Origin: Ignavibacterium sp.
GTDB lineage: Bacteria; Bacteroidota; Ignavibacteria; Ignavibacteriales; Ignavibacteriaceae
Reading direction: 5' to 3'
DNA: 39,709 bases
Assembly (NCBI GenBank): GCA_025056745.1
Contig: JANWVQ010000059.1
Span: 1 to 39,709, forward strand
Every line of letters starts with the position of its first letter. Position 1 is the stretch's first letter. The translations under genes and the position numbers were made by a program. This document shows, in pieces, positions 4,073 through 22,945 of this stretch. The notes beneath the pieces are model-generated. The model was not told the origin of the DNA. It did no database searches and was given only the letters and a program-made list of their open reading frames with translations.

Positions 4073-5296
4073 TTATAAAAACTTTGGTAATTTAATAAAA
4101 AATGTAGTGCCTTTACCAACTTCACTTTCAAAATAAATTTCACCATTATGATTTTGTATAATTTTTTTACAGATATCTAAGCCGAGACCTGTGCCAGATG
4201 ATTTTGTGGTAAAAAAAGGTTGCCAGATTTTATCTCTAATTTCCTCTGGAATTCCACATCCTTCATCCTTTACAGAAATTATCCAATTATTTTCATCCTC
4301 TTGAAGTGATAATTGAATTGTGCTTTTGGGCTCTGAAGCGTGGGCTGCATTTCTAATTAGATTTATCAAAACTTGCTGAATTTTATCTTGATTTACGAGT
4401 GCAAAAGCGTATTTATAATCTGGTTCTTTGAATTCTAAGTTTATCTTATTTAAATCTTTATCGAAACGTTCTAATTTAATTGTTTTATCAATCAATGAAA
4501 TTAAATCAATTTTAGATTTTTCATATTCTTTTGATTTGGAGAAATCACGTATCTCATCTAACAAACTCAAAATTCTATTTCTTGCCTCGAGAATATATTC
4601 AGTGTATTTAAGAATTTTCTTATCATCGGGATAAAGTTTTCTTATAAAATCAACAGCCATTATTACTACTAATTGATTTTTTATTTCGTGAGAGATTCCA
4701 GAAGCAAGTTGGCCTATTGTAGCAAATTTTTCCTGATTGATTATTGTTTCCTGCGCTTGTTGTAATTCTAAAAAAGCTTTCTGAAGTAGTTCATACTGCC
4801 TTTTCAGTTCTTCAATTAAATGAGCATTTTCTATAGCAACTGCAGAGATTGATGCAAAAGCCTTGGATAGTTCAATATCCTCATAAGTGAATTTATCGTC
4901 ATTTTTGTTCAATATTTGAAAAACACCAATGATATCTCCTTCAATGTTTCGCATTGGAACGGTTAAAATGTTTCGTGTCTTAAAGCCGGTTATTTGATCA
5001 AATTCTTTATTAAATAAAGGATTATTGTAAGGATCATCAATCACTAATGTTTCACCAGTAGAAGCGACATAACCAGCAATACCTTTTGATATTGGAAAAC
5101 GAATTTCTTTTTTGTTTATTCCAATTCCAGAGTAAGAATAAAGCTCTTGAGATGATTTATCATAGAGAAAAACGGTTGAACGTTCACAATTGAGAAATTC
5201 TGTAGAAGTTGCTACAATTAAGCCTATTAGATTTTCAACATTTTTTTCAGAGCTTAATTTGATTGTGATTTCAATCAGCTTTTTCAACTTTTCCAT
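4073..5296 (-). CDS. GAF-domain sensor histidine kinase (soluble)
   Basis: A 407-residue cytoplasmic histidine kinase with no membrane segment. Domain order: GAF sensor domain (about 20-158, with GVFQILNK and SAVAIENAHLIEEL at its end), coiled-coil linker (160-190, LLQKAFLELQQAQETI), HisKA dimerization/phosphoacceptor region with H203 in ISHEIKNQL, and an intact HATPase domain with N box (INLIRNAAHAS, N316), G1 box (DEGCGIP), F box (WQPFFTTK) and G2 box (GTGLGL). The usual proline of the H box (HEIKNPL) is glutamine here. No receiver domain or response regulator is encoded nearby, so its partner must lie elsewhere. It is the first gene of a leftward set followed by two sodium-coupled amino-acid transporters, which may only be co-transcribed. 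GAF ligand is unknown. Confidence 0.93.
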   Translation of the reverse strand: MEKLKKLIEITIKLSSEKNVENLIGLIVATSTEFLNCERSTVFLYDKSSQELYSYSGIGINKKEIRFPISKGIAGYVASTGETLVIDDPYNNPLFNKEFDQITGFKTRNILTVPMRNIEGDIIGVFQILNKNDDKFTYEDIELSKAFASISAVAIENAHLIEELKRQYELLQKAFLELQQAQETIINQEKFATIGQLASGISHEIKNQLVVIMAVDFIRKLYPDDKKILKYTEYILEARNRILSLLDEIRDFSKSKEYEKSKIDLISLIDKTIKLERFDKDLNKINLEFKEPDYKYAFALVNQDKIQQVLINLIRNAAHASEPKSTIQLSLQEDENNWIISVKDEGCGIPEEIRDKIWQPFFTTKSSGTGLGLDICKKIIQNHNGEIYFESEVGKGTTFFIKLPKFL

Positions 5297-5445: not shown

Positions 5446-6468
5446 ATGAAACTAAAAGTATTTTTAATTTTTCTACTGATTTTTTTCAAAGTTCCAGCTC
5501 AAAGTTCAATCAATATAGTTGTTTTTCCATCGCTGCGTAATATTGATTTTACTTCAATAATCCCATCAAATGAACTTCAAAATAATGTAAGAATTTTTTG
5601 TGTAGAAATCTCTCCTCAAGGGCAACAAGTTTATATCAAAGGATTGTTTGAGTGGCAAAAAGTTGGTTCAAATAGTTTCGTTGAATTGGGAAATTTTGAA
5701 ACAAAAAATTTTACTTCAAGAAATTTTTGTAATGATGAACTCGGTTCACAAGATATTTCAATTAAAAAATTTAGTTCAAACAGAGATTTAATTGATGAGA
5801 ACCTCAGAATTGGTGTCCCCTCTGGTGTTTATAGAATAACGTTAAATCTATTTGACTCAAATTCACAGACATTGCTTGCTCAGGATACAGAGGAGCTGAC
5901 ATTCTTAAATCCTTCTCAAACACTTCAAATAATAAATCCAAAGATTGGATTAACATACGATCCTGGAAATGTCATTATTGACTGGACTCCATTAAATGGT
6001 GCTGATTTTTACTCTGTCAAAGTAAACAGACGTTTGAATCCAAATCAATCTTTAGAAGAAGCATTGAATTTAGGTACACCATTAGTAAATGATAGAAATG
6101 TTGGAGCAGTGACAAGCGTTAATCTAAGAAATATTTTAGAGAGAGAGTTGGAACCTGGGACTGAAGTTGTTGTTCAAGTTACTGCTCATATTTCGGGACC
6201 TTTTGGAGGAAATAGAATTTTTAGTCCAATTATTAATTTTTATATACAAGGTCAAAATGTCCCCTCAACAAACGCTTCTTATTTTAGATTAATGAATTCT
6301 CTTCGAAGATTGCAAAATTCTCAATTACTAACTTTATTGGAGAATAATCAGATTAATATCTCAGAAATTAGGATAAGAAAAGATGATGGTTCTTTTATGA
6401 GTCTTGAAGAACTTGTTGACTTTTTGGAATCAAATTCTGAAAACATTTTAAGAATAGAAACAGAATAG
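5446..6468 (+). CDS. Secreted protein with Ig/FN3-like domains, unknown function
   Basis: A 340-residue exported protein I cannot assign to a named family. The ATG at 5446 is chosen over an upstream in-frame ATG because it has an AGGAGG ribosome site five bases before it and begins a clean signal peptide (MKLKVFLIFLLIFFKVPAQS). The mature part has a beta-rich first half (about 20-160) and a second Ig/FN3-like region around 165-275, with an IIDWTPLNGADFYSVKV stretch resembling the core strand of FN3/Ig folds in surface proteins. The last 50 residues are polar and helical (LRRLQNSQLLTLLENNQ). It is the first gene of a rightward cluster: a FecR protein starts 11 bases downstream, then an outer-membrane barrel and a CHASE2 cyclase. 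Its place suggests a periplasmic or surface partner of that signalling unit; this is inference. Confidence 0.75.
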   Translation: MKLKVFLIFLLIFFKVPAQSSINIVVFPSLRNIDFTSIIPSNELQNNVRIFCVEISPQGQQVYIKGLFEWQKVGSNSFVELGNFETKNFTSRNFCNDELGSQDISIKKFSSNRDLIDENLRIGVPSGVYRITLNLFDSNSQTLLAQDTEELTFLNPSQTLQIINPKIGLTYDPGNVIIDWTPLNGADFYSVKVNRRLNPNQSLEEALNLGTPLVNDRNVGAVTSVNLRNILERELEPGTEVVVQVTAHISGPFGGNRIFSPIINFYIQGQNVPSTNASYFRLMNSLRRLQNSQLLTLLENNQINISEIRIRKDDGSFMSLEELVDFLESNSENILRIETE

Positions 6469-6479
6469 GAGGTTGAATT

Positions 6480-7175
6480 ATGAAAAGTGTAATTAAAATA
6501 TTCATAGGAATAATCTCAGTTTTTATTCTTATTGCTGCAAGCAATCCTGTTAATACATCAAAGCAATATAATGCTGTAATTGTTACGAAAGTCATTCAAG
6601 ATGTCAAACATAAATCTGGCAATGATGATTGGACTCAAACAAAACCTCTTACTCAGCTAAAAACAAATGATTTATTAAAAACTGGAATTAAATCTGTGGC
6701 TGTATTAAAATTTGTAGATGGTAGCATCTTAAGAGTAAGAGAAAAATCAACCATAGTTATCTATGCTGATAAAAAAGAAAAAGGTCTTATTAAAAATACC
6801 AGATTGGAAAATGGCAAACTAATTTTCGATGTGAATAAGCAATCTGAAGATGATAAATTTATAATAACAACACCAACGGCTGTTGCGACAGTCCGAGGTA
6901 CAGCAGGTTTAGTTGAAACTCTTGAAGATGGTTCTACGTTAGTTTTTGTCGAGCGCGGAGTTGTTGAAGTTGAGTCCACAGGGCAATTGAAAGAAACAAA
7001 GGTTTTGGAAGCCGGAAAAGTTTCAATAGTTCAACCAGATGGAACAATTCAACTTTCTGATGCAAATGAAGAGCAGAGAAAAAATTTCTCGAATTCAAAT
7101 AAGACAAACGAAAAATCAATTCTAATTCAGACAAACAGAGGGAACTTCAGAATTTATTATTTAGATGAAGAGTAA
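6480..7175 (+). CDS. FecR-domain periplasmic protein
   Basis: A 231-residue exported or membrane-anchored protein with a FecR-type domain. The N-terminus is a hydrophobic signal segment (about 4-20). Residues 50-170 show the FecR pattern: KTNDLLKTGIKSVAVLKF, VDGSILRVREKSTI, a turn, then TTPTAVATVRGTAGLVE and LVFVERGVVEVES. In iron-uptake systems FecR relays a signal from an outer-membrane receptor to an anti-sigma function, but in this stand-alone form, without a sigma factor and without the cytoplasmic anti-sigma part, it is a periplasmic beta-solenoid-like module of uncertain role. A good AGGAGG ribosome site precedes the ATG. It lies between a secreted Ig-like protein and an outer-membrane barrel protein, with a CHASE2 cyclase two genes on. 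FecR genes beside CHASE2 cyclase genes are a recurring arrangement, which supports a shared sensing role. Confidence 0.88.
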   Translation: MKSVIKIFIGIISVFILIAASNPVNTSKQYNAVIVTKVIQDVKHKSGNDDWTQTKPLTQLKTNDLLKTGIKSVAVLKFVDGSILRVREKSTIVIYADKKEKGLIKNTRLENGKLIFDVNKQSEDDKFIITTPTAVATVRGTAGLVETLEDGSTLVFVERGVVEVESTGQLKETKVLEAGKVSIVQPDGTIQLSDANEEQRKNFSNSNKTNEKSILIQTNRGNFRIYYLDEE

Positions 7176-7183
7176 TTTTTAAT

Positions 7184-7236
7184 TTAGAGTTGAATTCCAT
7201 TAAATTTGAGTTGTAAAATTTGGAATTCAACTCTAA
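7184..7236 (+). promoter_or_regulatory. 16-bp perfect hairpin ending on the next start codon
   Basis: TTAGAGTTGAATTCCA (7184-7199) and TGGAATTCAACTCTAA (7221-7236) are exact reverse complements, leaving a 21-base loop. The right arm ends on the A of the ATG at 7236 of the barrel-protein gene and covers the place where its ribosome site would be. No U-run follows, so a simple terminator is unlikely. The structure would hide the start of translation in the mRNA and may tune the ratio of FecR protein to barrel protein. Confidence 0.7.
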
Positions 7237-9623
7237 TGAAAAATTTTATACGAGCATTTATTTTATCCTTAACCTGTATAATTGTTGTTAAAGCTCAATT
7301 TAATGATATTAAAATATCCACCAATCCTGAAGATGTAGTTGAAAATTATTCATTTACGTTATCAATTGAGTTATTAGATGGTGAGCAGCCAGTTCAAGCA
7401 ATTATTTTCTATAGAACTTTTGGTGATATTGAATTTACATCCTTTGATATGACAATTCAAGGCAACAAACTTGTTGCACAATTTGAGCCCTCGAAAGTAA
7501 TCTCTCCATTTATTGAATGCTATGTTAATGTAATTAACTCTCAGGGTGTTCAGAAAATATATCCATCCGCGGCTTTGGAGACAAAGAATTTTATTAGAAT
7601 AAATGTGAACAAAAAGATCTCATCAGTTCAGGAAATAATAATTTTATCACCTACAGCTGATGAGGCTTTTACATTAGAGGAATTTTTCCTTGCCTTTTCT
7701 TTAATTAGAGTTTCAAAGGATGTAAATAAAAATTTAACAAAGGTTTTTATAAATGGAAATGATGTTAGTTCTTTACTTATTTTTTCAGATGATTTGGTTT
7801 TCATACCTCAAGGAAAAAACGAATTCTTAAACTTAGGAAAAAATTATCTTTCTATCTTTTTATATGATTTTGATGGTAAGCTTTTTAAGGAGATAGATTA
7901 TAGTTTTGATATTCTTAGTAAATCTCAAAAAGAGGAATTAGAGAAAATAAAATTTAAGTTAAATGGCTCTGCTGAATTAAATCTTGCAAATGAAAAATTG
8001 AGATTTGGTTCAGCAAATTACAATCGATTAAATTTATCATTACAAGGGAATTATGGGGAAATTTATTCCAATGCACAAGTTTATTTAACTAATGAAGAAA
8101 AATCATTTTTACAACCTCAAAATAGATTTTCTCTTCAAGTTTATAATGATTGGGCTAAGTTAAACTTCGGTGATCATTTCCCGGAATTTCCTTCTTTAAT
8201 TTTAAGTGGAAAAAGAGTTCGCGGTTTAAGCGCAAAACTATCATTAGGATTTTTTAATATTCAAACAACTTATGGAGAAATAACTCGCAAAATAGAAGGT
8301 GAATTAATTTCTTTAGTCAGACGTGATTCCATTGTTCTTGATCCTAATTTAATTCCTTTAGATTCCTCAAGATTTGGTCAACCTTTCGGAATTGTAAGAC
8401 TAGGAACCTATGGTAGAAAATTATTTGCTGTTCGTCCTTCTTTTGGAAGTGGTGAAAATTTCCAATTTGGAATTACTTATCTTCATTCGAAAGATGATGA
8501 AAAATCTGTTATCTTCAGTGCAAAGCCTAAAGAAAATCTTGTTTTAGGAACTGACTTTTTCTTAGGTTTTGATCAAAGAAGAATTCAACTGAACTTTCAA
8601 AGCGCCTTTAGTTTGTTGAATAAAGATATTGCATTGGGTAATATCTCTGATGCTACATTAGACTCCATAGCAAACAATAACAACATTGGAATTGATGTTA
8701 GCTTATTAAGAACAATCAGAGATATTTTAGGTAATTTCATAACCGTTAATCAATATCTTTCTCCAATAAATCCACAAGAACTTCCCAATTTAGCTGCTGA
8801 GGGAAGTTTAAGTGTAAATTACTTTGGAAATTACTTCAAAGGCACTTACTTATATAGAGGAAATGAATATACATCTTTTGGTCAGAATTATATTCGAACT
8901 GATATAAAAGGAATTCAATTATTAGATAGAATTTCATTATTTCAAAATAGAGTTTTTTTATCATTAAGTTATGAAAAATTGAATGATAATCTTCAGAATA
9001 CAAAAATTGCTACAACCACTTTCAATAATTATGAGGGTTCATTATCACTGTATTTAAGAAATGATTTTCCGATTGTAAATTTTTCTTATTCAAATTTTAA
9101 TACAAAAAATGATATTGATCCATCCACAAGAGATTCTGTCAGATTGAATAACATTTTAGACGAAAACACCAATGTTATTAATCTCTCTTCTTCGTATGAC
9201 TTTAATTTTTATCGTAAACATAAAATATCTTTAGGATACTTGAACTCCAAAAGAAACGATAATACGTTCAGAAGATCATCATCAAGTTTTAGTTCATTAA
9301 CTTTATCTATTCAAACTATTTGGGATTCAGATTTAGTATCTTTTATAAGCTCTAACATCAATAATTCGGAAATAATAAATCGCACTTTTGACTTTTTCTC
9401 ACTGACAATTGGTGGCAGACTCTCAATGCTTGAAAATAAATTGTTAAATTCAGTCTCTTTTGCAATTTTCTCCGGTGATTTTAAGCGTAATGTTTTAGAT
9501 GTTAATTCAAAATATCAAATAACTAATAATTTATCATCATTTTTTAATTTCAGATACATCATCAATTCAGGAAATTTGAAAGATGAGAGTTTATTAAACT
9601 TATTACTTAGATATGAATTTTAG
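7236..9623 (+). CDS. Outer-membrane beta-barrel protein with N-terminal Ig-like region
   Basis: A 795-residue exported protein. I choose the ATG at 7236 because it opens a clean signal peptide (MKNFIRAFILSLTCIIVVKAQ); an in-frame TTG 30 bases earlier would place polar residues before it. Residues about 22-125 look like an Ig-type domain (DVVENYSFTLSIELLDGEQP), then a mixed region to about 250. The remainder is made of alternating-polarity strands typical of an outer-membrane barrel and ends in LLLRYEF, a terminal aromatic residue that the BAM machinery recognizes. No TonB box or plug domain is seen. It overlaps the CHASE2 cyclase gene by 11 bases, implying translational coupling. It could act as the outer-membrane part of an envelope sensing unit with the FecR protein; that is inference. 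No named family is recognized. Confidence 0.75.
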   Translation: MKNFIRAFILSLTCIIVVKAQFNDIKISTNPEDVVENYSFTLSIELLDGEQPVQAIIFYRTFGDIEFTSFDMTIQGNKLVAQFEPSKVISPFIECYVNVINSQGVQKIYPSAALETKNFIRINVNKKISSVQEIIILSPTADEAFTLEEFFLAFSLIRVSKDVNKNLTKVFINGNDVSSLLIFSDDLVFIPQGKNEFLNLGKNYLSIFLYDFDGKLFKEIDYSFDILSKSQKEELEKIKFKLNGSAELNLANEKLRFGSANYNRLNLSLQGNYGEIYSNAQVYLTNEEKSFLQPQNRFSLQVYNDWAKLNFGDHFPEFPSLILSGKRVRGLSAKLSLGFFNIQTTYGEITRKIEGELISLVRRDSIVLDPNLIPLDSSRFGQPFGIVRLGTYGRKLFAVRPSFGSGENFQFGITYLHSKDDEKSVIFSAKPKENLVLGTDFFLGFDQRRIQLNFQSAFSLLNKDIALGNISDATLDSIANNNNIGIDVSLLRTIRDILGNFITVNQYLSPINPQELPNLAAEGSLSVNYFGNYFKGTYLYRGNEYTSFGQNYIRTDIKGIQLLDRISLFQNRVFLSLSYEKLNDNLQNTKIATTTFNNYEGSLSLYLRNDFPIVNFSYSNFNTKNDIDPSTRDSVRLNNILDENTNVINLSSSYDFNFYRKHKISLGYLNSKRNDNTFRRSSSSFSSLTLSIQTIWDSDLVSFISSNINNSEIINRTFDFFSLTIGGRLSMLENKLLNSVSFAIFSGDFKRNVLDVNSKYQITNNLSSFFNFRYIINSGNLKDESLLNLLLRYEF

Positions 9624-11793
9624 TAATAACTTCATCCTTCCAACATTTATTTCACTTTTGATAATCTTATTCGCAACGAACATTATAATTGAAAACTACA
9701 TAATTTCTTCTTTAGACAGTAAGCTGAAAGATTTGCATTTCAATCGAAGAGGGAAAATATTTGATTTAGAACAAAATAAAGTAGTAATTATAGGAATATC
9801 AAATAAGACATTAAAAGAACTTCCACCACCATACAATCAATGGCCAATTGCAAGGAATTTGTTTGCCAAGCTAATTAAAAATTTAAATGAGTCAGGTGTT
9901 AAAGTAATTGGAATTGATATTTTATTTAATGAAGAAGATAGGTATGATAAGAAAAACGATTCTCTTTTTTTATACGAAATTAAAAAATTGAATAATGTGG
10001 TATTAGCTGCGAAGTTAGATGAGTTAGATGAAAGATTTATCATTCAAAGCGAAGGCAATAAAAAAAAATATAATAATTATTTTTATGAAGGAGATGATGA
10101 TTTAATTGGATTTGTAAATGTTATCCCAGACTTCGATGGAATTATAAGACATTACTATCCAAAATATTACGATGTTTATTCTGAAAGAAACTTATCGACA
10201 TTTTCATTTAAGATATTTGAAAAATACCTGAAATTAGTTTCTAAAAATGATTCCAACTCGTTTCAAAAATATTTTGATGAAATAAAATTACACATTGAAA
10301 ATAAATCTCTCCTTATAAATTTTTATGGGCCCTCTAAAACATTTCCAACAATTGAACTTATCGATGTATTAGATGACGTTGAATTAAAGACCGTAACTGA
10401 AATTGAAACTGGAGAAGAAATAAACACTTGGGATGATTCACTGAGTGGATTGAAATACTCTGATTTATTCAAAGACAAAATAGTCTTAATTGGATCAATT
10501 GAACCAGAGGATAAAGATATTTATCCAGTTCCTATATCAGAGGAATCGCAAATGCAATTTGGTAATTTGATGTATGGGGTTGAAATTCACGCTAATGTTG
10601 TTCAAATGCTGGTTGATAAGAACTTAATAAAAAAAATTCCGAATTCAATTTTTACAATTCTGATTTTTATAACTGCTTTTTTACTTAATTACTTATTTGA
10701 TATTCAAAAGAGATGGAAGTTCAGCTCACTATTAGGAAATGAAATTTTGAATCTGATAGTCTTATCCTTGTTTCTTTATGGATTATATGAAACATCTTTT
10801 CAGCTATTCAAGCAAAATTATTTTTTAAGTGTGACAAGTTTAGGATTGACTGGCGTCTCAATCTATCTAACAAAATTGATTATTCATTATTTGAATGAAA
10901 GAAAACAAAAACTTATGATTAAAAATATGTTTAGTCATTATGTAAGTAGTAAAATTGTAGATGATTTAATAGCCAATCCACAAAAGTTAAAATTAGGTGG
11001 TGAAAGAAAGGTATTATCAATTCTTTTTAGTGACATTACAAACTTTACGACTTTATCAGAATCAATTGAGCCTGAAACTCTTGTGGAATTTATGAATGAT
11101 TATTTCGATAAAATGTCCGAGATAATTTTTATAAACAATGGAACACTCGATAAATTCGAAGGTGATGCTATAATGGCTTTTTGGAATGCTCCTATAAATG
11201 ATCCTAATCATACAACAAATGCTTTGAAATCTGCTTTAGAAATGAGAAGTCAAACAGAGAAAATAAATCAGGTCTGGAAAGAAAAGCTTAACTTTCATAT
11301 AAAAACGAGAATCGGGATTAATACGGGTGAAGCAATTGTTGGAAATATGGGTTCAAACAAAAAATTTGATTTTACTGTGATGGGAGATAATGTTAACATC
11401 TCCGCTCGATTAGAGGCTATTAATAAATTTTACGGCACTGATATTATCGTTTCAGAAAATACAATGATCGATAATAATGACAAATTTCTTTTCAGAGAAT
11501 TAGATTATCTTATTGTTAAAGGAAAAAGTAAGCCAATAAAAATTTATGAGCTAATTGGATTAATTGATGATAATTTTAACAATACTTGGAAAACAATTAT
11601 ACCTGAATTTGAAAATGCTTTAAAGTTTTATAGACAAAGAAAATTCAAAGAAGCGAAAGAAATATTTGAAAAAATCTTAAAAATCAAACCGGATGATAAA
11701 CCAACTTCATTATACATTCAGAGATGCGATAGCTTTATTCAAAATCCACCAGATGAATCGTGGGAAGGAATTTCTGAAGTATTGATTAAATAG
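9613..11793 (+). CDS. CHASE2-domain class III adenylate cyclase
   Basis: A 726-residue membrane-bound cyclase that would make cAMP in response to an extracytoplasmic signal. An N-terminal helix (about 8-26) is followed by a periplasmic CHASE2 sensor domain (about 30-335, with VVIIGISNKTL and VKVIGIDILF), three transmembrane helices (about 344-425), and a class III cyclase domain (about 465-645). The two metal-binding aspartates are D474 (FSDITNFT) and D518 (KFEGDAIMAFW). The purine-specifying pair K514 and D592 (VMGDNVN) indicates ATP rather than GTP, and the transition-state residues N595 and R599 are present, so it should be active. A short TPR-like tail (about 660-710) follows. It overlaps the barrel-protein gene by 11 bases and ends the FecR cluster. 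No cAMP receptor protein is encoded in the window. Confidence 0.93.
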   Translation: MNFSNNFILPTFISLLIILFATNIIIENYIISSLDSKLKDLHFNRRGKIFDLEQNKVVIIGISNKTLKELPPPYNQWPIARNLFAKLIKNLNESGVKVIGIDILFNEEDRYDKKNDSLFLYEIKKLNNVVLAAKLDELDERFIIQSEGNKKKYNNYFYEGDDDLIGFVNVIPDFDGIIRHYYPKYYDVYSERNLSTFSFKIFEKYLKLVSKNDSNSFQKYFDEIKLHIENKSLLINFYGPSKTFPTIELIDVLDDVELKTVTEIETGEEINTWDDSLSGLKYSDLFKDKIVLIGSIEPEDKDIYPVPISEESQMQFGNLMYGVEIHANVVQMLVDKNLIKKIPNSIFTILIFITAFLLNYLFDIQKRWKFSSLLGNEILNLIVLSLFLYGLYETSFQLFKQNYFLSVTSLGLTGVSIYLTKLIIHYLNERKQKLMIKNMFSHYVSSKIVDDLIANPQKLKLGGERKVLSILFSDITNFTTLSESIEPETLVEFMNDYFDKMSEIIFINNGTLDKFEGDAIMAFWNAPINDPNHTTNALKSALEMRSQTEKINQVWKEKLNFHIKTRIGINTGEAIVGNMGSNKKFDFTVMGDNVNISARLEAINKFYGTDIIVSENTMIDNNDKFLFRELDYLIVKGKSKPIKIYELIGLIDDNFNNTWKTIIPEFENALKFYRQRKFKEAKEIFEKILKIKPDDKPTSLYIQRCDSFIQNPPDESWEGISEVLIK

Positions 11794-11883
11794 CCAGTTC
11801 TGTTTATTGTATTAAATAACAATTATTTTAAATTTATTATGTATATTAAGTTCAGAAAAGTGCATAATAATAGAGGAGTAATT

Positions 11884-13527
11884 TTGAAAATAGTCAATAA
11901 AGTTATTGTTTCACTTGTTGTCTTTTTTATTTTATCTTGTAGCAAACCATTGTCCTCAGAATCTTTTATAAGAATTAATCAATTAGGTTTTAGACCTGAA
12001 GATCAAAAAACTGCAATTTTGATCTCAGCTGCTCCAATTACTGTTAAAGAATTTGTAATTAAAACAAAAAATGACAAAACTGTTTTTGAAAAAGATTTAT
12101 TGATTGACACAGCATTAAATTCTCATTTTAAGTATTCAGCAAGATTAGATTTTTCTGAATTCAAACAGCAAGGCGAGTATTATATCCAAATAAATAACAT
12201 TCGTTCTAAAATTTTTAGAATTAGGAATAATATTTACAATCAAGTAAGAGATTCATTGAGTTTATTTTTTCGGGTTCAACGATGTGGTCCTACAAAACCA
12301 TTTCTACATCAACCTTGTCACTTACAAGATGCAACTGAAGTTATCGGTTACAGTAAAACATCGCCTGTTGATTTAACAGGAGGTTGGCACGATGCTGGTG
12401 ATTATACAAAATTTTTATTTACAACTGCTTTTACTACTTATATGATGTTATTTGCCTATGAGTTTGATCCACAAAAATTCAATTATGATTTAGATAAAAA
12501 TTCTGTCCCTGATATTCTTGAAGAAGCTCGTGTAGGATTAGATTTTTTATTAAGATGTGATTTCGCTGATGATGCTTTTATAACTCAAGTTCAAGATGAT
12601 AGAGATCATACTGTTGGATGGAGAATGCCAGAGAATGATACTCTTACTTTCAACCGTCCCGCATTCGTTAAAATGAATAGAAGTCAAATTGGTATTTATG
12701 CAGCCACAATGGCTATTGCAAATAGAATATGGAAATCAAAATTCTTTGATTATGAATTCGCTGAAAAATGCCTAAAGTCTGGAATTAAAATTTTTGAACT
12801 AAGAGATAAAATAATAGATTATAAAGATGAAGCTAAATATTATCCTGATACTATTTATATCGGTGAATTAGCCTTGGGGGCTGCAGAGTTATTTTTTTCA
12901 ACGAATAATAAGAAATATCAAATTTTAGCTTTGGAATATGGCAGGAAAACAGAACCTGATTTTTGGTGGAGCTGGGGTGATTTTAACGCACTTGCTTTTT
13001 ACAAGCTTAGTAGTATTGATTATTCTTTTACAAATCAAATCAGAAAAAACTTAGAACAATTTCGTCAAAATTCGAGGAATAATTTTTTTAATGAACCATT
13101 AAGCTATAGTTGGGGTACAACTACTTCATTTTTAGGAGTAGCACTACAAGCGATTCTTTATAAAAAATTAACCAACAATTCAGAGTTTGATAGTTTAATT
13201 TACAACTGCAGAGATTTTGTCCTTGGAAGAAATCCCTGGGGGATGAGTTTTATTTATGGAATAGGACATTCATATCCTAAAAAGATTCACTCTCAAATAG
13301 CATATTTTCTTAAAGGATATCTACCCGGTGCACTTGTTGGAGGACCCTCTCCTAGTTCAGTTTTTGAAGGAAGGAATATTGAACGAAATTCTCAATTAAG
13401 TAAATTTGATTATAAAAATATCATTTATTTTGATTCATTCGACAATTATGTTAATAATGAACCAACAATAACTGGTAACGTAACTGCTTTATTTGTCTAT
13501 GGTTACTTCTGTTCATCTAATAATTGA
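11884..13527 (+). CDS. GH9-family glycosidase lipoprotein (endoglucanase-like)
   Basis: A 547-residue family 9 glycoside hydrolase, most likely cutting beta-1,4 glucans or a related polysaccharide at the cell surface or in the periplasm. I choose the TTG at 11884: a GAGGAG ribosome site lies just before it and it opens a lipoprotein signal with a lipobox ending at C19 (FFILSC). An upstream ATG would add 15 charged residues that spoil the signal. An N-terminal Ig-like domain (about 27-120, FIRINQLGFRPEDQK) leads into the alpha/alpha barrel. GGWHDAGDYTKF carries the aspartates D170 and D173, the base pair of GH9, and the acid is probably E526 in NEPTITGN. LGRNPWGMSFIYGIG is the usual late motif. 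Activity on cellulose is not proven by sequence; it may trim the polymer made by the downstream synthase operon. Confidence 0.9.
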   Translation: MKIVNKVIVSLVVFFILSCSKPLSSESFIRINQLGFRPEDQKTAILISAAPITVKEFVIKTKNDKTVFEKDLLIDTALNSHFKYSARLDFSEFKQQGEYYIQINNIRSKIFRIRNNIYNQVRDSLSLFFRVQRCGPTKPFLHQPCHLQDATEVIGYSKTSPVDLTGGWHDAGDYTKFLFTTAFTTYMMLFAYEFDPQKFNYDLDKNSVPDILEEARVGLDFLLRCDFADDAFITQVQDDRDHTVGWRMPENDTLTFNRPAFVKMNRSQIGIYAATMAIANRIWKSKFFDYEFAEKCLKSGIKIFELRDKIIDYKDEAKYYPDTIYIGELALGAAELFFSTNNKKYQILALEYGRKTEPDFWWSWGDFNALAFYKLSSIDYSFTNQIRKNLEQFRQNSRNNFFNEPLSYSWGTTTSFLGVALQAILYKKLTNNSEFDSLIYNCRDFVLGRNPWGMSFIYGIGHSYPKKIHSQIAYFLKGYLPGALVGGPSPSSVFEGRNIERNSQLSKFDYKNIIYFDSFDNYVNNEPTITGNVTALFVYGYFCSSNN

Positions 13528-13537
13528 AATTTGTAAT

Positions 13538-13572
13538 AAAATGAGTCAAAGTTAATTTTTATGGCTCATTTT
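13538..13572 (+). terminator. Weak terminator-like hairpin after the GH9 gene
   Basis: AAAATGAGTCA (13538-13548) can pair with TGGCTCATTTT (13562-13572) with one G-T wobble and a 13-base loop, 10 bases after the GH9 stop. A second A/T-rich hairpin (AAAAAATG at 13600-13607 with CATTTTTT at 13617-13624) follows before the next gene. Neither has a strong G/C core, so termination is plausible but unproven. They suggest that the following operon has its own promoter in the 143-base gap. Confidence 0.45.
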
Positions 13573-13670
13573 GATACGCTTAAATGATTTGAGCATTGAA
13601 AAAAATGAAAAAATCGCATTTTTTAATGGTATGATGATTGCTTATTATCAAAAAAATTATAGGTTTTAAA

Positions 13671-14918
13671 ATGAAAAGGTCTGTAAGACTAATTCCATCT
13701 GGTATTCAGTTAGTAGATAGCACTTGGGGCGGTTTCTACAAAGGTGGAACTTATCTATTAGTCGGAGAAAGAAAAACAGGGAAGACTTTGATTTGTATTC
13801 AATATGCCTATGAAGCTGCTAAACAAAGAGGAACTTGTTTATTTTTTACAAATGCTCGACCAAAAGATATAATTATCCAAGCTGCATCAATTGATATTGA
13901 TTTAGAAGATTATATTAATCAAAATAAAATAATAGTCGTACGAGTTGCGCCTCCAAATGATTTCTATGGATTTTCAGATAAAGATAATTTATTGACAGAA
14001 TATTTAGTTGATATTGAAAACCTCGTAAATCAATACAATCCAACCAGATTAGTTTTTGATGAAATAACACCTTATGTTGATTATCAAGATACAAATAAAT
14101 TGAAAGCAGTTTTTACTTCAACCTTTGAAAGAATTGAAGATCGAGGAATAACAAGTCTTTTAGTTTTAAGAGAACCTGCTTCAATAGAAGCTCAGCTTAT
14201 ATTTAATGTGTTAGGCTCATTTGCTACAGGTGTTATTCAGCTCTATAAGTCAACAGATGAAAGTGGTATTGTTCGTGGTGGTGTTATGGATATTCAACCA
14301 AATGTTGGACATAGCGAAGGGAGATTTAAGGCAAACTATTCTATTGAACCGTATAAAGGAGTTGTAACTCACTTTAAGTTACCAAAAAATAAAGAAACCG
14401 AAACGGAAAAATTATCTTCTTTGAAAAGAAATAACGGTTTTGCAACTTTATCTGAAATTGATAATAAAAATACAGTTGAAGAATTAACCAATGTTTATTC
14501 TTTAGATGAATTTAAATTGCTCGTTAATAATCATATAGCGATGAATAAAACCACAGGTCAAGTATTCTCTTTAATCTCATTTAAATTGGTTGACCCTGAA
14601 CTTAAACAATCATCATTAACATTAAATCAGTTAAAAAATGTAATTAAAATATCTATCGACAGAAAAGATAAAATGTGCGTAATTAATGATGTTATATTGG
14701 TTTTGTTCTTAAAAGAGGATATAAAATTATTAAACAACTTATTAGCTAAAATTAAATCAAATTTACCATCAGATGATGCTGACGAACGAGAAACAATGGC
14801 CAAGGATGTTGTATTTAGAGTAATTACTGTTAATGAATCATTTAAAGATGCAGATGATATGATTGCAAATATCTCTTCAACAGATGAAGTCTTCAAGGGC
14901 ATAATATTTAAAAATTAA
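13671..14918 (+). CDS. KaiC/RAD55-like ATPase with C-terminal GGDEF-like domain
   Basis: A 415-residue cytoplasmic protein starting at the ATG at 13671 (MKRSVRLIPSG); an in-frame TTG 33 bases upstream is less likely. Residues 1-240 form a RecA-fold KaiC-type ATPase: the entry motif IPSGIQLVDSTWGGFYKGG, Walker A GERKTGKT (32-39) and Walker B RLVFDE (126-131). Such single-domain KaiC relatives often act as regulatory switches rather than clocks. Residues about 268-415 look like a nucleotide-cyclase/GGDEF fold (SLDEFKLLVNNHI at the start, then a strand pair near 338-347), but the GGDEF loop itself is replaced by CVINDVILVL, so it cannot make c-di-GMP by the known mechanism. It starts a six-gene rightward set and lies 23 bases before a GT2 polysaccharide synthase, which suggests it controls that enzyme. 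The tail assignment is by eye and less certain. Confidence 0.82.
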   Translation: MKRSVRLIPSGIQLVDSTWGGFYKGGTYLLVGERKTGKTLICIQYAYEAAKQRGTCLFFTNARPKDIIIQAASIDIDLEDYINQNKIIVVRVAPPNDFYGFSDKDNLLTEYLVDIENLVNQYNPTRLVFDEITPYVDYQDTNKLKAVFTSTFERIEDRGITSLLVLREPASIEAQLIFNVLGSFATGVIQLYKSTDESGIVRGGVMDIQPNVGHSEGRFKANYSIEPYKGVVTHFKLPKNKETETEKLSSLKRNNGFATLSEIDNKNTVEELTNVYSLDEFKLLVNNHIAMNKTTGQVFSLISFKLVDPELKQSSLTLNQLKNVIKISIDRKDKMCVINDVILVLFLKEDIKLLNNLLAKIKSNLPSDDADERETMAKDVVFRVITVNESFKDADDMIANISSTDEVFKGIIFKN

Positions 14919-14941
14919 TTACAAAATATCATTATATTAAA

Positions 14942-16348
14942 ATGGCTGAGGAAGTAAAAAATTTAAGGAAAGAGATAAGGGTATTTCCTTACCCTAAAGA
15001 CGATATGAAGGAAATTGATCCAAAGAAAAAATATTTAAGAAGAATTATAGTAAGTGGGACTCTTTCTTTAATTCTAATTTTACTTATTTATTTTACAATG
15101 CCATATACAATACTGGGATTTAGCTCTCTTATTGAATATTCTGTTATTGTTGCTTTAATGTTAGTTATGTTAATTCTTCTATTTAGGTATTTTTCATTAT
15201 TAGTCTTGTCCTACTTAAATAACAATGAGTACACATTTAATACATCTCCAGAAATCAATCCATTTGTTTCAATTATAGTTCCAATTTATAACGAAGATAA
15301 GGTCTTAAAAGATTCTATTGAATCATTGTTGAATTTAGATTATGATAATTATGAAATTATAATGGTTAACGATGGTTCAACAGATAATACACTTGAAGTA
15401 GCTGAAGCATTAGTAGGAGTTCATAAGGGCAGATATTCTGATATTAAAGTAACGCTCATAAATAAACAAAATGCAGGTAAAGCAATAGCATTAAATACAG
15501 GTATATCTGTATCTCAAGCAGAATTTGTTTTATGTATGGATGCTGATTCAAAATTATCTCCAAACTGTTTGAAAGTTGGTATGCGTCACTTTAACGATCC
15601 TAAAGTTGGTGCAGTAGCTGGTAATGTCAAAGTTTTGAATAGAAAGAGATTTTTAACTGATCTTCAAGCGTTGGAATATATTGAAGGTTTGAATATGGCT
15701 CGTGCTGCTCAGAGCTACTTGAGGTTAGTAAACATAATACCAGGTCCAATAGGAATATTCAGAAAGAAAGCATTAGAATCTGCTGGCTATTATTCTGATG
15801 ATACATTTGCTGAAGATGCTGATCTTACATTAAAAATTCTATCTGCTGGTTGGAAAATTTATTATGAGCCTCTCGCTATATCTTATACCCAAGCCCCTAT
15901 AACATTACAACAACTTATAAAACAAAGATATAGATGGACAAGAGGAATTTTACAGTCTTTAAGGAAACATAAAAGTTCTGTTTTTACTTCAAAAAGTCCA
16001 TCAATTGGTTATACATTCATTATAATGTTTATGTTCTATGAAGCTTTAATTTGGCCAGTTATGAATATTGCTGCCAACGCTTTTTTCATTTTTGCAGCTC
16101 TATATTTTGGAATTTCAAGCCTATTATTTTACTGGTGGGCTGGATTAGCAATTTTGGATCTTGCTGCTGCACTTTATTGTATTGCAGTTGAAAAGGAGGA
16201 ATTTAGATTAGTTTGGTATGCAATAATTTATAGAATGGTATTTATACTAATAATCGATATAAGTAAAGCGATGTCAACTATTGAAGAATTTCTTGGTATA
16301 AAAATGTCTTGGGGAAAATTAGAACGTCAAGCAAATCTAACAGCATAA
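14942..16348 (+). CDS. Membrane GT2 processive polysaccharide synthase (PgaC/NodC/hyaluronan-synthase type)
   Basis: A 468-residue inner-membrane glycosyltransferase that would polymerize a nucleotide-sugar donor and pass the chain through the membrane. Two N-terminal helices (about 34-55 and 64-92) precede the GT-A domain (about 105-345). All processive GT2 motifs are present: SIIVPIYNE, D144 (VNDGST), D200-x-D202 (MDADS), the catalytic aspartate D292 (FAEDADL) and QRYRW (328-332) for acceptor binding. Further helices follow at about 357-445. The pattern is closest by eye to poly-N-acetylglucosamine and chitin/hyaluronan synthases, but the sugar cannot be read from sequence. No PilZ domain is attached. 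It is the second gene of the operon, between the KaiC-like ATPase and a small Pro-rich membrane protein, with a deacetylase-fold protein next, much as pgaC pairs with pgaB. Confidence 0.92.
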   Translation: MAEEVKNLRKEIRVFPYPKDDMKEIDPKKKYLRRIIVSGTLSLILILLIYFTMPYTILGFSSLIEYSVIVALMLVMLILLFRYFSLLVLSYLNNNEYTFNTSPEINPFVSIIVPIYNEDKVLKDSIESLLNLDYDNYEIIMVNDGSTDNTLEVAEALVGVHKGRYSDIKVTLINKQNAGKAIALNTGISVSQAEFVLCMDADSKLSPNCLKVGMRHFNDPKVGAVAGNVKVLNRKRFLTDLQALEYIEGLNMARAAQSYLRLVNIIPGPIGIFRKKALESAGYYSDDTFAEDADLTLKILSAGWKIYYEPLAISYTQAPITLQQLIKQRYRWTRGILQSLRKHKSSVFTSKSPSIGYTFIIMFMFYEALIWPVMNIAANAFFIFAALYFGISSLLFYWWAGLAILDLAAALYCIAVEKEEFRLVWYAIIYRMVFILIIDISKAMSTIEEFLGIKMSWGKLERQANLTA

Positions 16349-16360
16349 ATAGGAGTAGAA

Positions 16361-16801
16361 ATGGAACTAATACCAATTTTATCAATGATCATACTGGTTG
16401 CAACAATTTCAACATTTATACTTGCAATTGGTTCATATATTTTATACAAAGTAAGAGAGAGGAAAGCACAAGCTGCTTCAGTACAAAGACCAGCAGTTTA
16501 TCAAGCTGAAGTTATAAGTCCAATAAGTATTCCAGCTGAAGCTCAGGGAACTCAGTTTCAACCATATTCTGAAGTTAGGCCAGTTTACTCACAAGAATCA
16601 TATATTCCATCTGATGAACTTCATTATGGTCAGGAACCCGCACCAGCCGCTTATAATCCGCAACCTCGTCCATTTACTGGAACAGGCGGGCAAACTCAAA
16701 GAGCTAAAACTACGGACGAAAATAAATATATGAAGTATACATCTGAAGGATATATTCCTCCATCTGCAGATAAAAAATCTGGAACTGCAAAGTGGAAGTA
16801 G
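16361..16801 (+). CDS. Small single-helix membrane protein with Pro-rich tail
   Basis: A 146-residue protein of unknown function. A good ribosome site (AGGAG at 16351-16355) precedes the ATG. One transmembrane helix (about 6-29, ILSMIILVATISTFILAIGS) is followed by a basic stop-transfer stretch (KVRERK), so the rest should lie in the cytoplasm. The tail (35-146) is low in complexity and rich in Pro, Gln, Tyr and Ala (EPAPAAYNPQPRPFTGTGG) and probably disordered. It starts 12 bases after the synthase gene and overlaps the deacetylase-like gene by 10 bases, so it is surely made with both. By position it may be an accessory or scaffolding subunit of the polysaccharide synthase, as small membrane proteins are in other synthase-dependent systems. 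No family is recognized. Confidence 0.75.
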   Translation: MELIPILSMIILVATISTFILAIGSYILYKVRERKAQAASVQRPAVYQAEVISPISIPAEAQGTQFQPYSEVRPVYSQESYIPSDELHYGQEPAPAAYNPQPRPFTGTGGQTQRAKTTDENKYMKYTSEGYIPPSADKKSGTAKWK

Positions 16802-18684
16802 TCGAAAGAAAATATGGCTTAAGAGTTAATTTTCTACTCCTTCTAATAGGCGGATTAGTAATGCTAATTGCCTCTGCACTAATATTTTTACTAATAATAA
16901 GAGGAATATTCGGTGTTTTTGAAGTCAATGATATAATCCCTAAAAACTTTTTTGGATTATTTGGTAAACCGAAGCCTCAAGTAGCAATATTGCATTCTAA
17001 ATACACACAAAATATGTTACCAAAAGGGAATACTTGGATTTTAGATAATATTAACACTTGGAAAAAATATTTGAGCAATATTAATCTCTCAGCTGATGTA
17101 ATTGGTGATGAAGATATTGAAATGGGAAAACATTTCGATTATAAATTATTAATTCTTCCTGGCTCAAAATCTTTAAGTGAAAAAGAAATTATTCAAATTA
17201 AAAAATATTTAGAAAAAGGTGGTGCTGTCTTTGCTACCAGTGGAACAGGATCATTTTCAGATGACGGAAAATGGAAAGGTTGGGATTTTATAAATGAAAC
17301 TTTTGGTATAAGATTTACAAGAGAATTAAGTAGAGACGAATCTTATCTAATCCATACTCTGAGAGGATCATTACCTTTAACAGCTGAAATTCCTGCTGGT
17401 TTCGCTCTTAAGGTAGCAACTTGGGATCGCCCTGTTGCGGTTGAAGTGCTTGATCCAAGAACTACTCAGGTAAGTTATTGGTTTAATATTAAAAAAGACA
17501 GGGGCCTTGTAAGACAAGAAATTAAAGAAACCGCTGGAATTGTCTATGGCACATTTGGGGATGGAAAATTTGTTTGGTACGGATTTGAAATAAATTCTAT
17601 CATTGGTGTAAATCAAGAGCATCTTTATTTTGAAAAACTTTTTAATAATAGTATAAATTGGTTACTTTCTTTGCCAGTATCTGTCCCTAAAATTTGGCAA
17701 TCTGATTTCAAAGCAGGGGCTATATTCTTAGTGACTTTGGATAATAAGTTAGATAATCTAGATAACTTAATTCCAATTATTCAGAAGAATAATATTCCGA
17801 TTACATTTTTAGTAGATCCTCAAATAGCCTTATCTGATAGTTCTAGAATCAAGAATATAGCTCAGTATGGTGAACTGGCAGCCATTGTTGATATAGGATA
17901 TATTAATTCTTGGGATGACACTGATAATAAGCTTTATAATCAAGATGAACAAACAAAGAAAATTAAAGAAGCAAAAGAAATTATTGAAAAAGTATCTGGT
18001 AAAAAGGTTTTTGGTATGATGCCAAAATTTGGACTTTTTGATCAGAATACAATTTTCGCTGCCATAAAAAACAATCTTAAATATTTAATTGCAGATTCGA
18101 TTTTAGATCGCTCTGTACCTAACATTGTAATAAAAGGGAAAGATAAAATTGTTGTTTTCAGTAGAACAGCGAGAGATGATTACGAAGTTATCAGAGATTA
18201 CGGCTTAGAGGAACCAGCTTTTCAATTTTATACATATCAGGAAGATATTGATCGCCTGCTTTTTGAAAGTGGGTTATTGGTCTTTAATTTTCACCCAGAA
18301 TATCAATTACAATCAAAAAATGTAAATGTAATAGAACAAATCCATAAAGATATTGAGAAAAAAAATTTTCAAATAAACTATGCTTCAGCTATTTCTAATT
18401 GGTATGATAGAAAAGAAATCGTTCAAGTAAAAGCTGAACAAAGAGGGAAATACAGAATCTCATTGAAGATTTCAAATCCCGGCGATAGAACTATAGAAAA
18501 TTATAAGGTTGATATTGATTTAAACAGAAAAGTAAAAAATGTATCATTAGGATCTGAAATTATTGGACTTAAACCAGTTAAATTTGAACATTCTGAAGGA
18601 AGTAACATAATCTATATTACTATTGACAAATTAAAACCAGGTGAATCAAGAGTTTATTTTTTAGATTATGAAGTTGTTTCATAA
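16792..18684 (+). CDS. Membrane-anchored protein with amidotransferase-like and degenerate NodB-deacetylase domains
   Basis: A 630-residue protein anchored by one N-terminal helix (about 14-40) with the bulk probably outside the inner membrane. The start is GTG at 16792, overlapping the previous gene by 10 bases; no in-frame ATG exists before the anchor. Residues about 62-290 resemble a class I amidotransferase/ThuA-like flavodoxin fold (LLILPGSKSLSEKEIIQIKK, then GGAVFATSGTG) without a visible Cys-His-Glu triad. Residues about 305-505 resemble a NodB polysaccharide deacetylase, but the metal ligands are mostly gone: the TFDDG motif is TLDNKLDN, the HxxxH motif is absent, and only D317 and H501 (FNFHPEYQ) recall the family. 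Residues 550-630 form an Ig-like beta domain. It follows the GT2 synthase, so binding or guiding the polymer is more likely than deacetylating it. Domain names are by eye. Confidence 0.7.
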   Translation: MEVVERKYGLRVNFLLLLIGGLVMLIASALIFLLIIRGIFGVFEVNDIIPKNFFGLFGKPKPQVAILHSKYTQNMLPKGNTWILDNINTWKKYLSNINLSADVIGDEDIEMGKHFDYKLLILPGSKSLSEKEIIQIKKYLEKGGAVFATSGTGSFSDDGKWKGWDFINETFGIRFTRELSRDESYLIHTLRGSLPLTAEIPAGFALKVATWDRPVAVEVLDPRTTQVSYWFNIKKDRGLVRQEIKETAGIVYGTFGDGKFVWYGFEINSIIGVNQEHLYFEKLFNNSINWLLSLPVSVPKIWQSDFKAGAIFLVTLDNKLDNLDNLIPIIQKNNIPITFLVDPQIALSDSSRIKNIAQYGELAAIVDIGYINSWDDTDNKLYNQDEQTKKIKEAKEIIEKVSGKKVFGMMPKFGLFDQNTIFAAIKNNLKYLIADSILDRSVPNIVIKGKDKIVVFSRTARDDYEVIRDYGLEEPAFQFYTYQEDIDRLLFESGLLVFNFHPEYQLQSKNVNVIEQIHKDIEKKNFQINYASAISNWYDRKEIVQVKAEQRGKYRISLKISNPGDRTIENYKVDIDLNRKVKNVSLGSEIIGLKPVKFEHSEGSNIIYITIDKLKPGESRVYFLDYEVVS

Positions 18685-18685
18685 A

Positions 18686-19669
18686 ATGGCAAACAAAATG
18701 AAATTTAATTTAAGAGATTTTTACTTATATCTAAGCTTATTTAGTTTAATATTATTTAGTTCGTGTGTAGAAAATGTTTCTGATGCAAATAATAACACAA
18801 ATGTAAATCCAACCTATAATTATAATTTACGAATTGAAAAATTAGGTGATGGTACTGCAGTAAATTTAAGTTGGAATCTTGCTAATGCTGTGGTCAGTAG
18901 TTTTGAGATTCATCGAAAAATTGGATTCAAAGGAACTTATTCACTCTATAAAACTGTCCCCGGAGATGTTAAAGCAATTGTCGATGTAAATCTTAATAAA
19001 GATTCAACTTATTATTATAAAATCAGAGGAATAAATCAAGGTGTTCCATTACCATTTAGTCAAGAAGTTAATTCTGACAACCTTTTTAGTAGTGGTGATT
19101 TAGAACCACCAACCAACTTAGTTGCAAATGCTCGTGGAACAAGATTAGTTATTTTGAACTGGCGTGATAATAGTACAAATGAAATCTTTTTTACTATCGA
19201 AAGAAAAAATGAATGGGGAGATTTTGTAAGAATTGCATCTGTGCTTAAAGATGTGACAACCTTCAGAGATACAACTTATGGATTATTTCCCGGAGGAACT
19301 TTTTCTTATAGAATAAAGGCTTTCAGTGGTAAAGATTCAGCTCACTCGAATATTGCAACAACTACTACTTATGCTTTTGATTTGCCAGCACCAAGTAATC
19401 TAAGGGGTAACTATGATCGTAATAGAAGAATAGTAAACTTAGAATGGGTTAATAATGATACCCAAGGTTTAATTAAATTCTTTGCAATTGAAAGGAGAGT
19501 TATCGATTCTTCTAATTATACCACTTTGAACACAATTCCGTTCAGTCAATTAACTTTCGTTGATTCTACCACTCAATTAAATAAAGTTTATTTTTATCGA
19601 GTCGCTGGGCTAAATAATAACAGACAATATTCTGAATATTCAAATGAAATTGCAATAAGCACGTATTAA
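18686..19669 (+). CDS. Lipoprotein with three fibronectin type III domains
   Basis: A 327-residue exported lipoprotein. Candidate starts are ATGs at 18668, 18686 and 18698; I prefer 18686, which follows the previous stop by one base (TAAAATG) and suggests translational coupling. The signal peptide ends at a lipobox (LILFSSC), so the protein should be lipid-anchored in the envelope. Three FN3 repeats follow: NLSWNLANAVVSSFEIHRK with YYYKIRGIN; PPTNLVANARGTRLVILNWR with FSYRIKAFSG; and PAPSNLRGNYDRNRRIVNLE with YFYRVAGLN. FN3 modules in bacterial surface proteins usually act as spacers or bind carbohydrates. There is no catalytic domain. Being inside the polysaccharide operon, it may bind or display the polymer at the surface; this is inference. 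Confidence 0.85.
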   Translation: MANKMKFNLRDFYLYLSLFSLILFSSCVENVSDANNNTNVNPTYNYNLRIEKLGDGTAVNLSWNLANAVVSSFEIHRKIGFKGTYSLYKTVPGDVKAIVDVNLNKDSTYYYKIRGINQGVPLPFSQEVNSDNLFSSGDLEPPTNLVANARGTRLVILNWRDNSTNEIFFTIERKNEWGDFVRIASVLKDVTTFRDTTYGLFPGGTFSYRIKAFSGKDSAHSNIATTTTYAFDLPAPSNLRGNYDRNRRIVNLEWVNNDTQGLIKFFAIERRVIDSSNYTTLNTIPFSQLTFVDSTTQLNKVYFYRVAGLNNNRQYSEYSNEIAISTY

Positions 19670-19675
19670 AATTTT

Positions 19676-22600: not shown

Positions 22601-22945
22601 GAAGATCAATTGGATTCTCAAGTATTATTTAAGGTTCAAATGAAAGAGCTCAAAGAAGTAGTTGTTGCTCCAAGTTTTGAAGAAGCTCTTCCTCATCTAG
22701 AAAGCCGTAAATTTGATTTTATAGTGATTGATATAAACCTCGAAGGTGAGTACAATGGGTTAGATGCTTTGAAATTAATTAGAAAAATTCCCGGTTATGA
22801 AAAGACCCCAATTTTTGCATCAACTGCTTACATTCTGCCAGGTAATAAAGAAAGATTTATTGCCGCTGGTTTTAATAGTTTCATAGATAAACCAATCTTT
22901 AAAGAAAGAATAATTAAATCTTTGTCTGAAATTTCAGTTAATTAA
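19676..22945 (+). CDS. Multi-PAS hybrid histidine kinase with degenerate ATPase domain and C-terminal receiver
   Basis: A 1089-residue cytoplasmic signalling protein with no transmembrane helix. About five PAS-like domains (roughly 11-118, 165-280, 290-390, 400-515, 520-632) lead to a short coiled coil and a HisKA-like segment with H678 in VFHEILTPLNVI. The HATPase region (about 775-890) has lost its nucleotide-binding boxes: the N box is DPEKLERVIIGLVKIICRI with no Asn, the G1 box is ISDQYNNIS and no GTGLGL box exists. An acidic linker (890-965) joins a receiver domain with a full active site: E976/D977, phosphoacceptor D1019 (FIVIDINL), T1050 and K1072. It probably cannot autophosphorylate and may serve as a phosphatase, scaffold or relay target. 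It begins 6 bases after the FN3 lipoprotein and closes the polysaccharide operon. Confidence 0.87.
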   Translation: MAALFNSNINWEALKIIDSFNSPTVIVDKKLNLIYFNRTLKEILTEEPGENLQDLLKPELILKLESFIKNSIYKSKSLVDDLVVLPKSKYSQNYFSLFIYPYQISSKEYFILSFKPPYDESEKNSQTSLTEIKFFNENFEIQNYLSPEIQDLFESVSDIIPLSLVNKNKIKLLLDERDEIIWLRDSTEKIILANKSYLKSVGISSDDTQILSEDYIFFPYQKELLKNLMDYSKNVRKPLLVKGIKYSLSEVKDSYLMIYPVADKLGKNYVFFFILLKEHFNNKPIEDSIQLDYIQLPIIKIDQSKNIIYSNKHFQNILNQLALKQAINLNELFSESLIEKVDEIITSESFDKFVYIDKTFSISIIEKSDFVLNLSKDEKGFINLIFYPISKHEDLMLLLSQRGKTLDYYIQNSPEPIFIFEKETLKFLEINKPALNLYGYSRDEFLKLDLTDLYSPEDFQSLMDSIKKSKEQKITPVFKQKTKFGKDVYVRLNYNEFKYNGLDSFLVNIIDVTDRLLLENENKVVKDILLNVSDIIIETDSFGFIKSCSKNVFTKLGYQEKELIDLTFTSLVRDEERSLVASKLLKSNINPSEEFFFSIKKADENFVDAKVKSIPIKNPLGEVNAFKLLISLEEKLSGKQVEIKEIIKEVVVEKPIEVQPSQSNQNLISTEFLSGVFHEILTPLNVIFGFAQEIVEGVENPTAEQKEAIDIIKQNRVKMLDTMNSVVEYSELISKSSDLNIKELRLVDIIDRIETQAIDISKTFGIEFSLGKISSSLKIKTDPEKLERVIIGLVKIICRIAQEKKIYFSAYQLDNDLCLISISDQYNNISPQLSNLLDKLFNLNVEPRDLAAPRLTVNIMKFFMNLLKIKFSNKIEKDGKTYVGFIIPMNFYDEEKLESKDFEKEFNVKEEIKPQYDSTTFEDIEKEVKIESKSDVYLEEVKDSENKEQISELSKVSKEEPKKKIDLSNLTCLYIEDQLDSQVLFKVQMKELKEVVVAPSFEEALPHLESRKFDFIVIDINLEGEYNGLDALKLIRKIPGYEKTPIFASTAYILPGNKERFIAAGFNSFIDKPIFKERIIKSLSEISVN

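Follow-up and report, generated by a model that had tools for sequence, protein, structure and literature searches.

We found that four adjacent genes of an Ignavibacterium sp. genome are inherited together and probably encode a single envelope-spanning receptor cyclase, in which an outer-membrane barrel would act through secreted FecR and Ig/FN3 proteins on a CHASE2 cyclase, and cAMP in turn on a CRP-family regulator. The genes lie in contig JANWVQ010000059.1, of which positions 1 to 39,709 were analysed and are here called the window. In the scheme that we favor, the barrel would detect a signal at the surface, whether a ligand that binds to it or the occupancy of its lumen; a change of state would then be relayed from its periplasmic Ig-like domains via the two secreted proteins to the periplasmic CHASE2 domain, which would set the activity of the cytoplasmic cyclase, and the cAMP would then act through the CRP-family regulator. 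The scheme builds on the co-inheritance of the parts, their domain make-up, the predicted barrel fold, the intact cyclase residues, the single class III cyclase, the CRP-type gene, and a barrel domain found in some FecR proteins; the physical contacts, the order of the relay, the signal, and the choice between activation and inhibition are what we infer.

A preliminary description of the window had named an Ig-like protein, a FecR protein, an outer-membrane barrel and a CHASE2 cyclase, all rightward, at 5446-11793, and the four genes were indeed found there on the + strand (Table 1); the host genome is 2.74 Mb and 99.8% complete. Each of the four products opens with a hydrophobic segment. Coupled or near-coupled starts had also been claimed: this is accurate for the Ig and FecR genes, spaced by 11 nt, and for the barrel and cyclase reading frames, which overlap by 11 nt, but the FecR and barrel genes are separated by 60 nt holding a strong hairpin, and are not coupled. 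The Ig reading frame could start as early as 5332; 5446 was preferred because AGGAGG precedes its ATG. The barrel reading frame opens at TTG 7206, with a probable ATG at 7236. Promoter and terminator scans gave a number of sites no higher than in shuffled sequence.

Table 1. Features of the four-gene operon in the window.
Feature	Position	Strand	Description
Ig/FN3-type secreted protein	5446-6468	+	340 aa; signal peptide, two beta-sandwich domains, helical C-terminal tail; no Pfam family
FecR-domain secreted protein	6480-7175	+	231 aa; signal peptide, FecR domain 65-163, conserved C-terminal strand motif
Intercistronic RNA hairpin, FecR/barrel	7184-7236	+	16-nt perfect inverted repeat
Outer-membrane beta-barrel (predicted)	7236-9623	+	signal peptide, periplasmic Ig-like domains (~35-240), ~26-strand barrel (~250-804)
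CHASE2-domain adenylate cyclase (predicted)	9613-11793	+	726 aa; N-terminal TM, CHASE2 19-355, TM bundle, cyclase 468-647, short TPR-like tail

The hairpin has arms at 7184-7199 and 7221-7236 and a loop of 21, its last base being the A of the probable barrel ATG, and its fold is -24.8 (z -8.0 relative to mononucleotide shuffles). At the equivalent place, loci from the same family carry hairpins that differ in sequence (for instance z -5.6 in L035, -4.4 in L033, -4.2 in L043); at loci of family f2 the FecR-barrel gap is mostly short and less structured. The hairpin is a possible element for unequal expression of the operon genes. Upstream, a divergent GAF histidine kinase gene (4073-5296 in the window) was also seen at L033, L073 and L125; the region between it and the operon may hold a common promoter. 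Downstream (11839-22945) are genes for a GH9 hydrolase, a KaiC-like ATPase, a family 2 glycosyltransferase, a polysaccharide-deacetylase-like protein, an fn3 protein and a PAS hybrid kinase. This looks like a set of polysaccharide genes and might hint at the output, but the GH9 and sugar genes follow the operon in the same genus only, and were rejected as part of the module.

Full-length cyclase orthologues (~40% identity) were found in about half of 59 relatives, the two nearest operon-bearing ones belonging to the same genus. The same order and short gaps were seen in 26 loci, these being all loci fetched in which the four genes were recognised, and the arrangement recurs in dozens of genomes at 30-68% protein identity, far beyond chance. 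A scan anchored on the barrel, with one genome per species, gave 79 loci, with titles such as Ignavibacteria, Melioribacter, Stygiobacter and similar; Stygiobacter electus is among them. Where the contig reached far enough, the cyclase followed the barrel in 73 of 76 loci, FecR preceded it in 67 of 68, the Ig gene was present in 64 of 65, and all four genes stood in the order Ig-FecR-barrel-cyclase in 58 of 62; median gaps along the operon were 13, 43 and 8 nt. The recurrence of FecR with CHASE2 genes stated in the preliminary description was borne out, and the barrel and Ig genes, whose lack of conservation would have refuted that description, proved to be conserved beside that pair. The order is broken at L074, where Ig and FecR are missing and the upstream ORF is unrelated, and at L073, L125 and L078, where the cyclase is elsewhere in the genome; four other candidate exceptions (L127, L134, L136 and L144) were rejected as ORF-picking artefacts. 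L078 carries a second Ig-FecR-barrel triad (8147-13730), with one more Ig-family gene after it where the contig ends; a barrel-cyclase pair lies on a different contig of that genome (L158).

We examined co-inheritance in 198 genomes drawn evenly from the phylum; the genomes are related, and the counts below are not independent events. Barrels were called at 150 bits or more, while the cyclase subfamily scored ~559 bits and above, separated by a clear gap from other cyclases at 505 and below; membership in families f16, f19 and f34 was set by full-length scores. The barrel and the cyclase subfamily occur in an identical set of 55 of the 198 genomes, with the barrel directly upstream of CHASE2 in 49 of the 55; the perfect overlap depends on these score thresholds and on a single sample of genomes. 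Other CHASE2 cyclases, at most 505 bits to the window-cyclase profile, lack the barrel. The full operon is present in other families of the window's class and, outside the class but in the same phylum, in f27 and f16; the f27 Ig proteins are homologous to those of the window type (hhalign probability 97.6%, E 4e-12).

In f19 and f34, six genomes have the barrel and the cyclase orthologue at separate loci, and all six keep both. A FecR homologue matching the same profile is likewise present in each, with an Ig homologue beside it in five (G137, G130, G184, G173 and G066); none was found beside FecR in G180. Because adjacency was lost in these families, tight linkage is not required, which counts against the relay. 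The close relatives of the window at L073 and L125 keep the triad, but their cyclase genes lie on a different contig; these cyclases are sister to the window cyclase with full SH-aLRT support. Retention in the genome after the genes have separated is more telling than adjacency alone. On the cyclase tree (a quick tree, with SH-aLRT support only and its root on a long branch), the barrel-adjacent cyclases taken with the unlinked orthologues need three label changes, which fits one gain and two losses, though the tree does not prove a single origin.

CHASE2 cyclases outside this subfamily have other neighbors. G081 and G162 were considered as barrel-less cyclase orthologues and rejected, their cyclases (397-405 bits) being of a different CHASE2 subfamily and accompanied by a 1674-aa TPR/NHL protein and a small partner. 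At L214 (2164-10248), L215 (1926-10016) and L067 (4102-11580), the CHASE2 cyclase genes come after those for an NHL/TPR protein of 1500-1700 aa and a secreted protein of 224-248 aa, which has a TPR tail and looks like FecR but has no PF04773 match; this is a second type of envelope partners for CHASE2 cyclases. At L034 (14491-17257), L045 (12963-15690) and L066 (5949-8769), a second CHASE2 cyclase subfamily, present in some relatives, follows a secreted protein of ~200 aa that is not FecR or barrel, and is weakly like DUF4384 in the L034 copy.

The window cyclase matches PF05226 (E 1e-47) over its CHASE2 domain and PF00211 (E 3.5e-23) over its catalytic domain, with hydrophobic segments near 6-34 and 342-391. 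Among 24 cyclase sequences D474, D518, K514, N595 and R599 are invariant, and D586 is conserved in at least 90%. From class III cyclases generally, we take D474 and D518 to be metal residues, K514 and D586 to select adenine, and N595 and R599 to be transition-state residues. By these residues the enzyme is predicted to be catalytically intact and of adenylate-cyclase type. Searching the genome with PF00211 gave one class III cyclase, the operon's own. The genome also encodes three cyclic-nucleotide-binding domains, and one of the proteins, which has a Crp HTH, is a regulator of the CRP type. Topology, intact residues and the CRP-family gene are consistent with a cAMP path from the outer membrane to the cytoplasm.

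The preliminary description knew of no such signal path described before, but a route from an outer-membrane barrel to a CHASE2 cyclase, NsrA to CyaK, is already published for Sinorhizobium meliloti, where genetics showed that a surface signal raises cAMP via both proteins, with CyaD1/D2 also in the system (PMC7529298, PMC13001267). In the NsrA sequence (CP140934.1), whose gene is directly before cyaK, we found a FecR domain at 66-160 (E 2.3e-15) and TPR repeats on one chain; the barrel region is 600-1200 (PMC7529298). The window module appears to resemble NsrA-CyaK in layout, in that genes for an outer-membrane barrel and a periplasmic FecR domain stand together with that for a CHASE2 class III cyclase. 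However, NsrA is a single 1200-aa polypeptide combining FecR, TPR and barrel, whereas the window has separate FecR and barrel genes and adds an Ig/FN3 gene, and no TPR was found by Pfam in its barrel or FecR protein. The barrels show no homology detectable by sequence (hhalign probability 0.1%) and are apparently unrelated families, so that for the barrel part the precedent is only analogous.

Partial likenesses occur elsewhere. Campylobacterota cluster a CHASE2 adenylate cyclase with a FecR-domain outer-membrane protein, for which one pathway was proposed (PMC9239204), again contrary to the idea of an undescribed path; those clusters hold a cAMP phosphodiesterase and a TPR protein, for which no genes were found among the window neighbors scanned, and an Ig/FN3 protein is not mentioned there (PMC9239204). 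In the Burkholderia BiofilmReg operon a LysM-FecR protein gene likewise adjoins that of a CHASE2-domain sensor, but the output is a histidine kinase and response regulator, and there is no barrel (PMC5192318). Magnetospirillum mtxA encodes an FN3-like Ig domain protein and precedes a CHASE2 cyclase gene, but MtxA also has TPR repeats, and a barrel gene is not described there (PMC4439547). Our literature search found no paper joining CHASE2 and Ignavibacteria. New in the window operon are the barrel family, apparently unrelated to that of NsrA, and the Ig family, neither of them in Pfam, together with the separate FecR protein and the strict co-inheritance.

The barrel fold is predicted: the model (pLDDT 85) has β-rich N-terminal domains followed by ~26 strands. 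Its nearest solved fold is MtrB (PDB 6r2q; Z 18.4, rmsd 4.0 over 436 aligned residues, 12% identity), which is part of an electron-conduit complex, with no functional link implied; the ushers PapC/FimD and AlgE are other near folds. The Ig/FN3 protein, for which 63 members gave no credible Pfam family, was modelled (pLDDT 89) as two β-sandwich domains and a helical tail, the second sandwich (~154-270) being FN3-like (best Z 9.6 over ~90 residues). That the near folds include large conduits and export barrels, that plug and TonB features were not found in the barrel, that two secreted β-rich partners accompany it, and that apparent polysaccharide genes lie downstream in the window genus all suit the main rival to surface sensing, an envelope-assembly checkpoint. 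Here barrel, FecR and Ig would form a secretion or export conduit and CHASE2 would sense unassembled FecR or Ig protein or a jammed barrel, so that cAMP would convey the condition of the conduit rather than the presence of an outside ligand. The present data fit both, but we consider the checkpoint rather unlikely, since no conserved cargo gene travels with the module, whose flanking genes vary between genera, and since the NsrA-type precedents are receptors.

The FecR protein matches PF04773 (E 6e-15) and has a conserved C-terminal motif, K..IxTxxGxxxIxY. At L134, L174, L177 and L199 it is longer, and the N-terminal Ig-like domain of the barrel occurs in it one to three times (i-E 1e-11 to 1e-15), after the FecR domain and before the conserved C-terminal strand. 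These barrel-type domains, and the fusion of FecR with a barrel in NsrA, argue that FecR and barrel work together. They also weigh against a second rival, that barrel, Ig and FecR build a surface structure while the mechanistically separate cyclase only shares their transcript. Co-inheritance of the four genes would also fit separate functions in one regulon, and to that extent counts against the relay; linkage is by itself no proof of contact, and the FecR-barrel hairpin could uncouple expression. Yet barrel and cyclase share their set of genomes even when unlinked, and FecR pairs with CHASE2 in other phyla with other partners (PMC9239204, PMC5192318), and we judge separate functions to be improbable. 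A Fec-type system, with FecR an anti-sigma regulator driven by a TonB-dependent receptor, would account for a FecR domain and an outer-membrane barrel together but was rejected as most improbable, being contradicted by the domain content of both proteins: FecR is secreted whole, with only an N-terminal signal peptide and the FecR domain and no layout of cytoplasmic anti-sigma domain and single TM (anti-sigma domain in 0 of 27 members), the barrel has no Pfam match at E <= 0.01, and so none to a plug or TonB receptor (0 of 27 members), and no Pfam match to a sigma factor was found among the flanking window genes scanned.

Returning to the receptor cyclase, a stronger form can be put forward tentatively, as somewhat less probable than the relay itself: that this is a new class of envelope-spanning receptor cyclase, an obligate complex of a ~26-strand barrel of a new family, a FecR relay, an Ig/FN3 relay and a CHASE2 adenylate cyclase, the sole class III cyclase of the cell, so that cAMP in these bacteria would mainly report on the cell surface or outer membrane.

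The CHASE2 sensor domain is widespread, and for CHASE2 kinases its signals are stated to be unknown (PMC5192318). In the window operon it has three constant partners, inherited with it and extending as far as the outer membrane, and it belongs to the only class III cyclase detected in the genome. Two protein families absent from Pfam, the barrel and the Ig protein, are defined by this work. The operon provides a defined gene set for asking by what means an event at the surface is passed across two membranes when neither TonB nor an anti-sigma factor takes part, and the four genes, inherited together across several classes, are a good candidate for a complete surface-to-interior reporting device.
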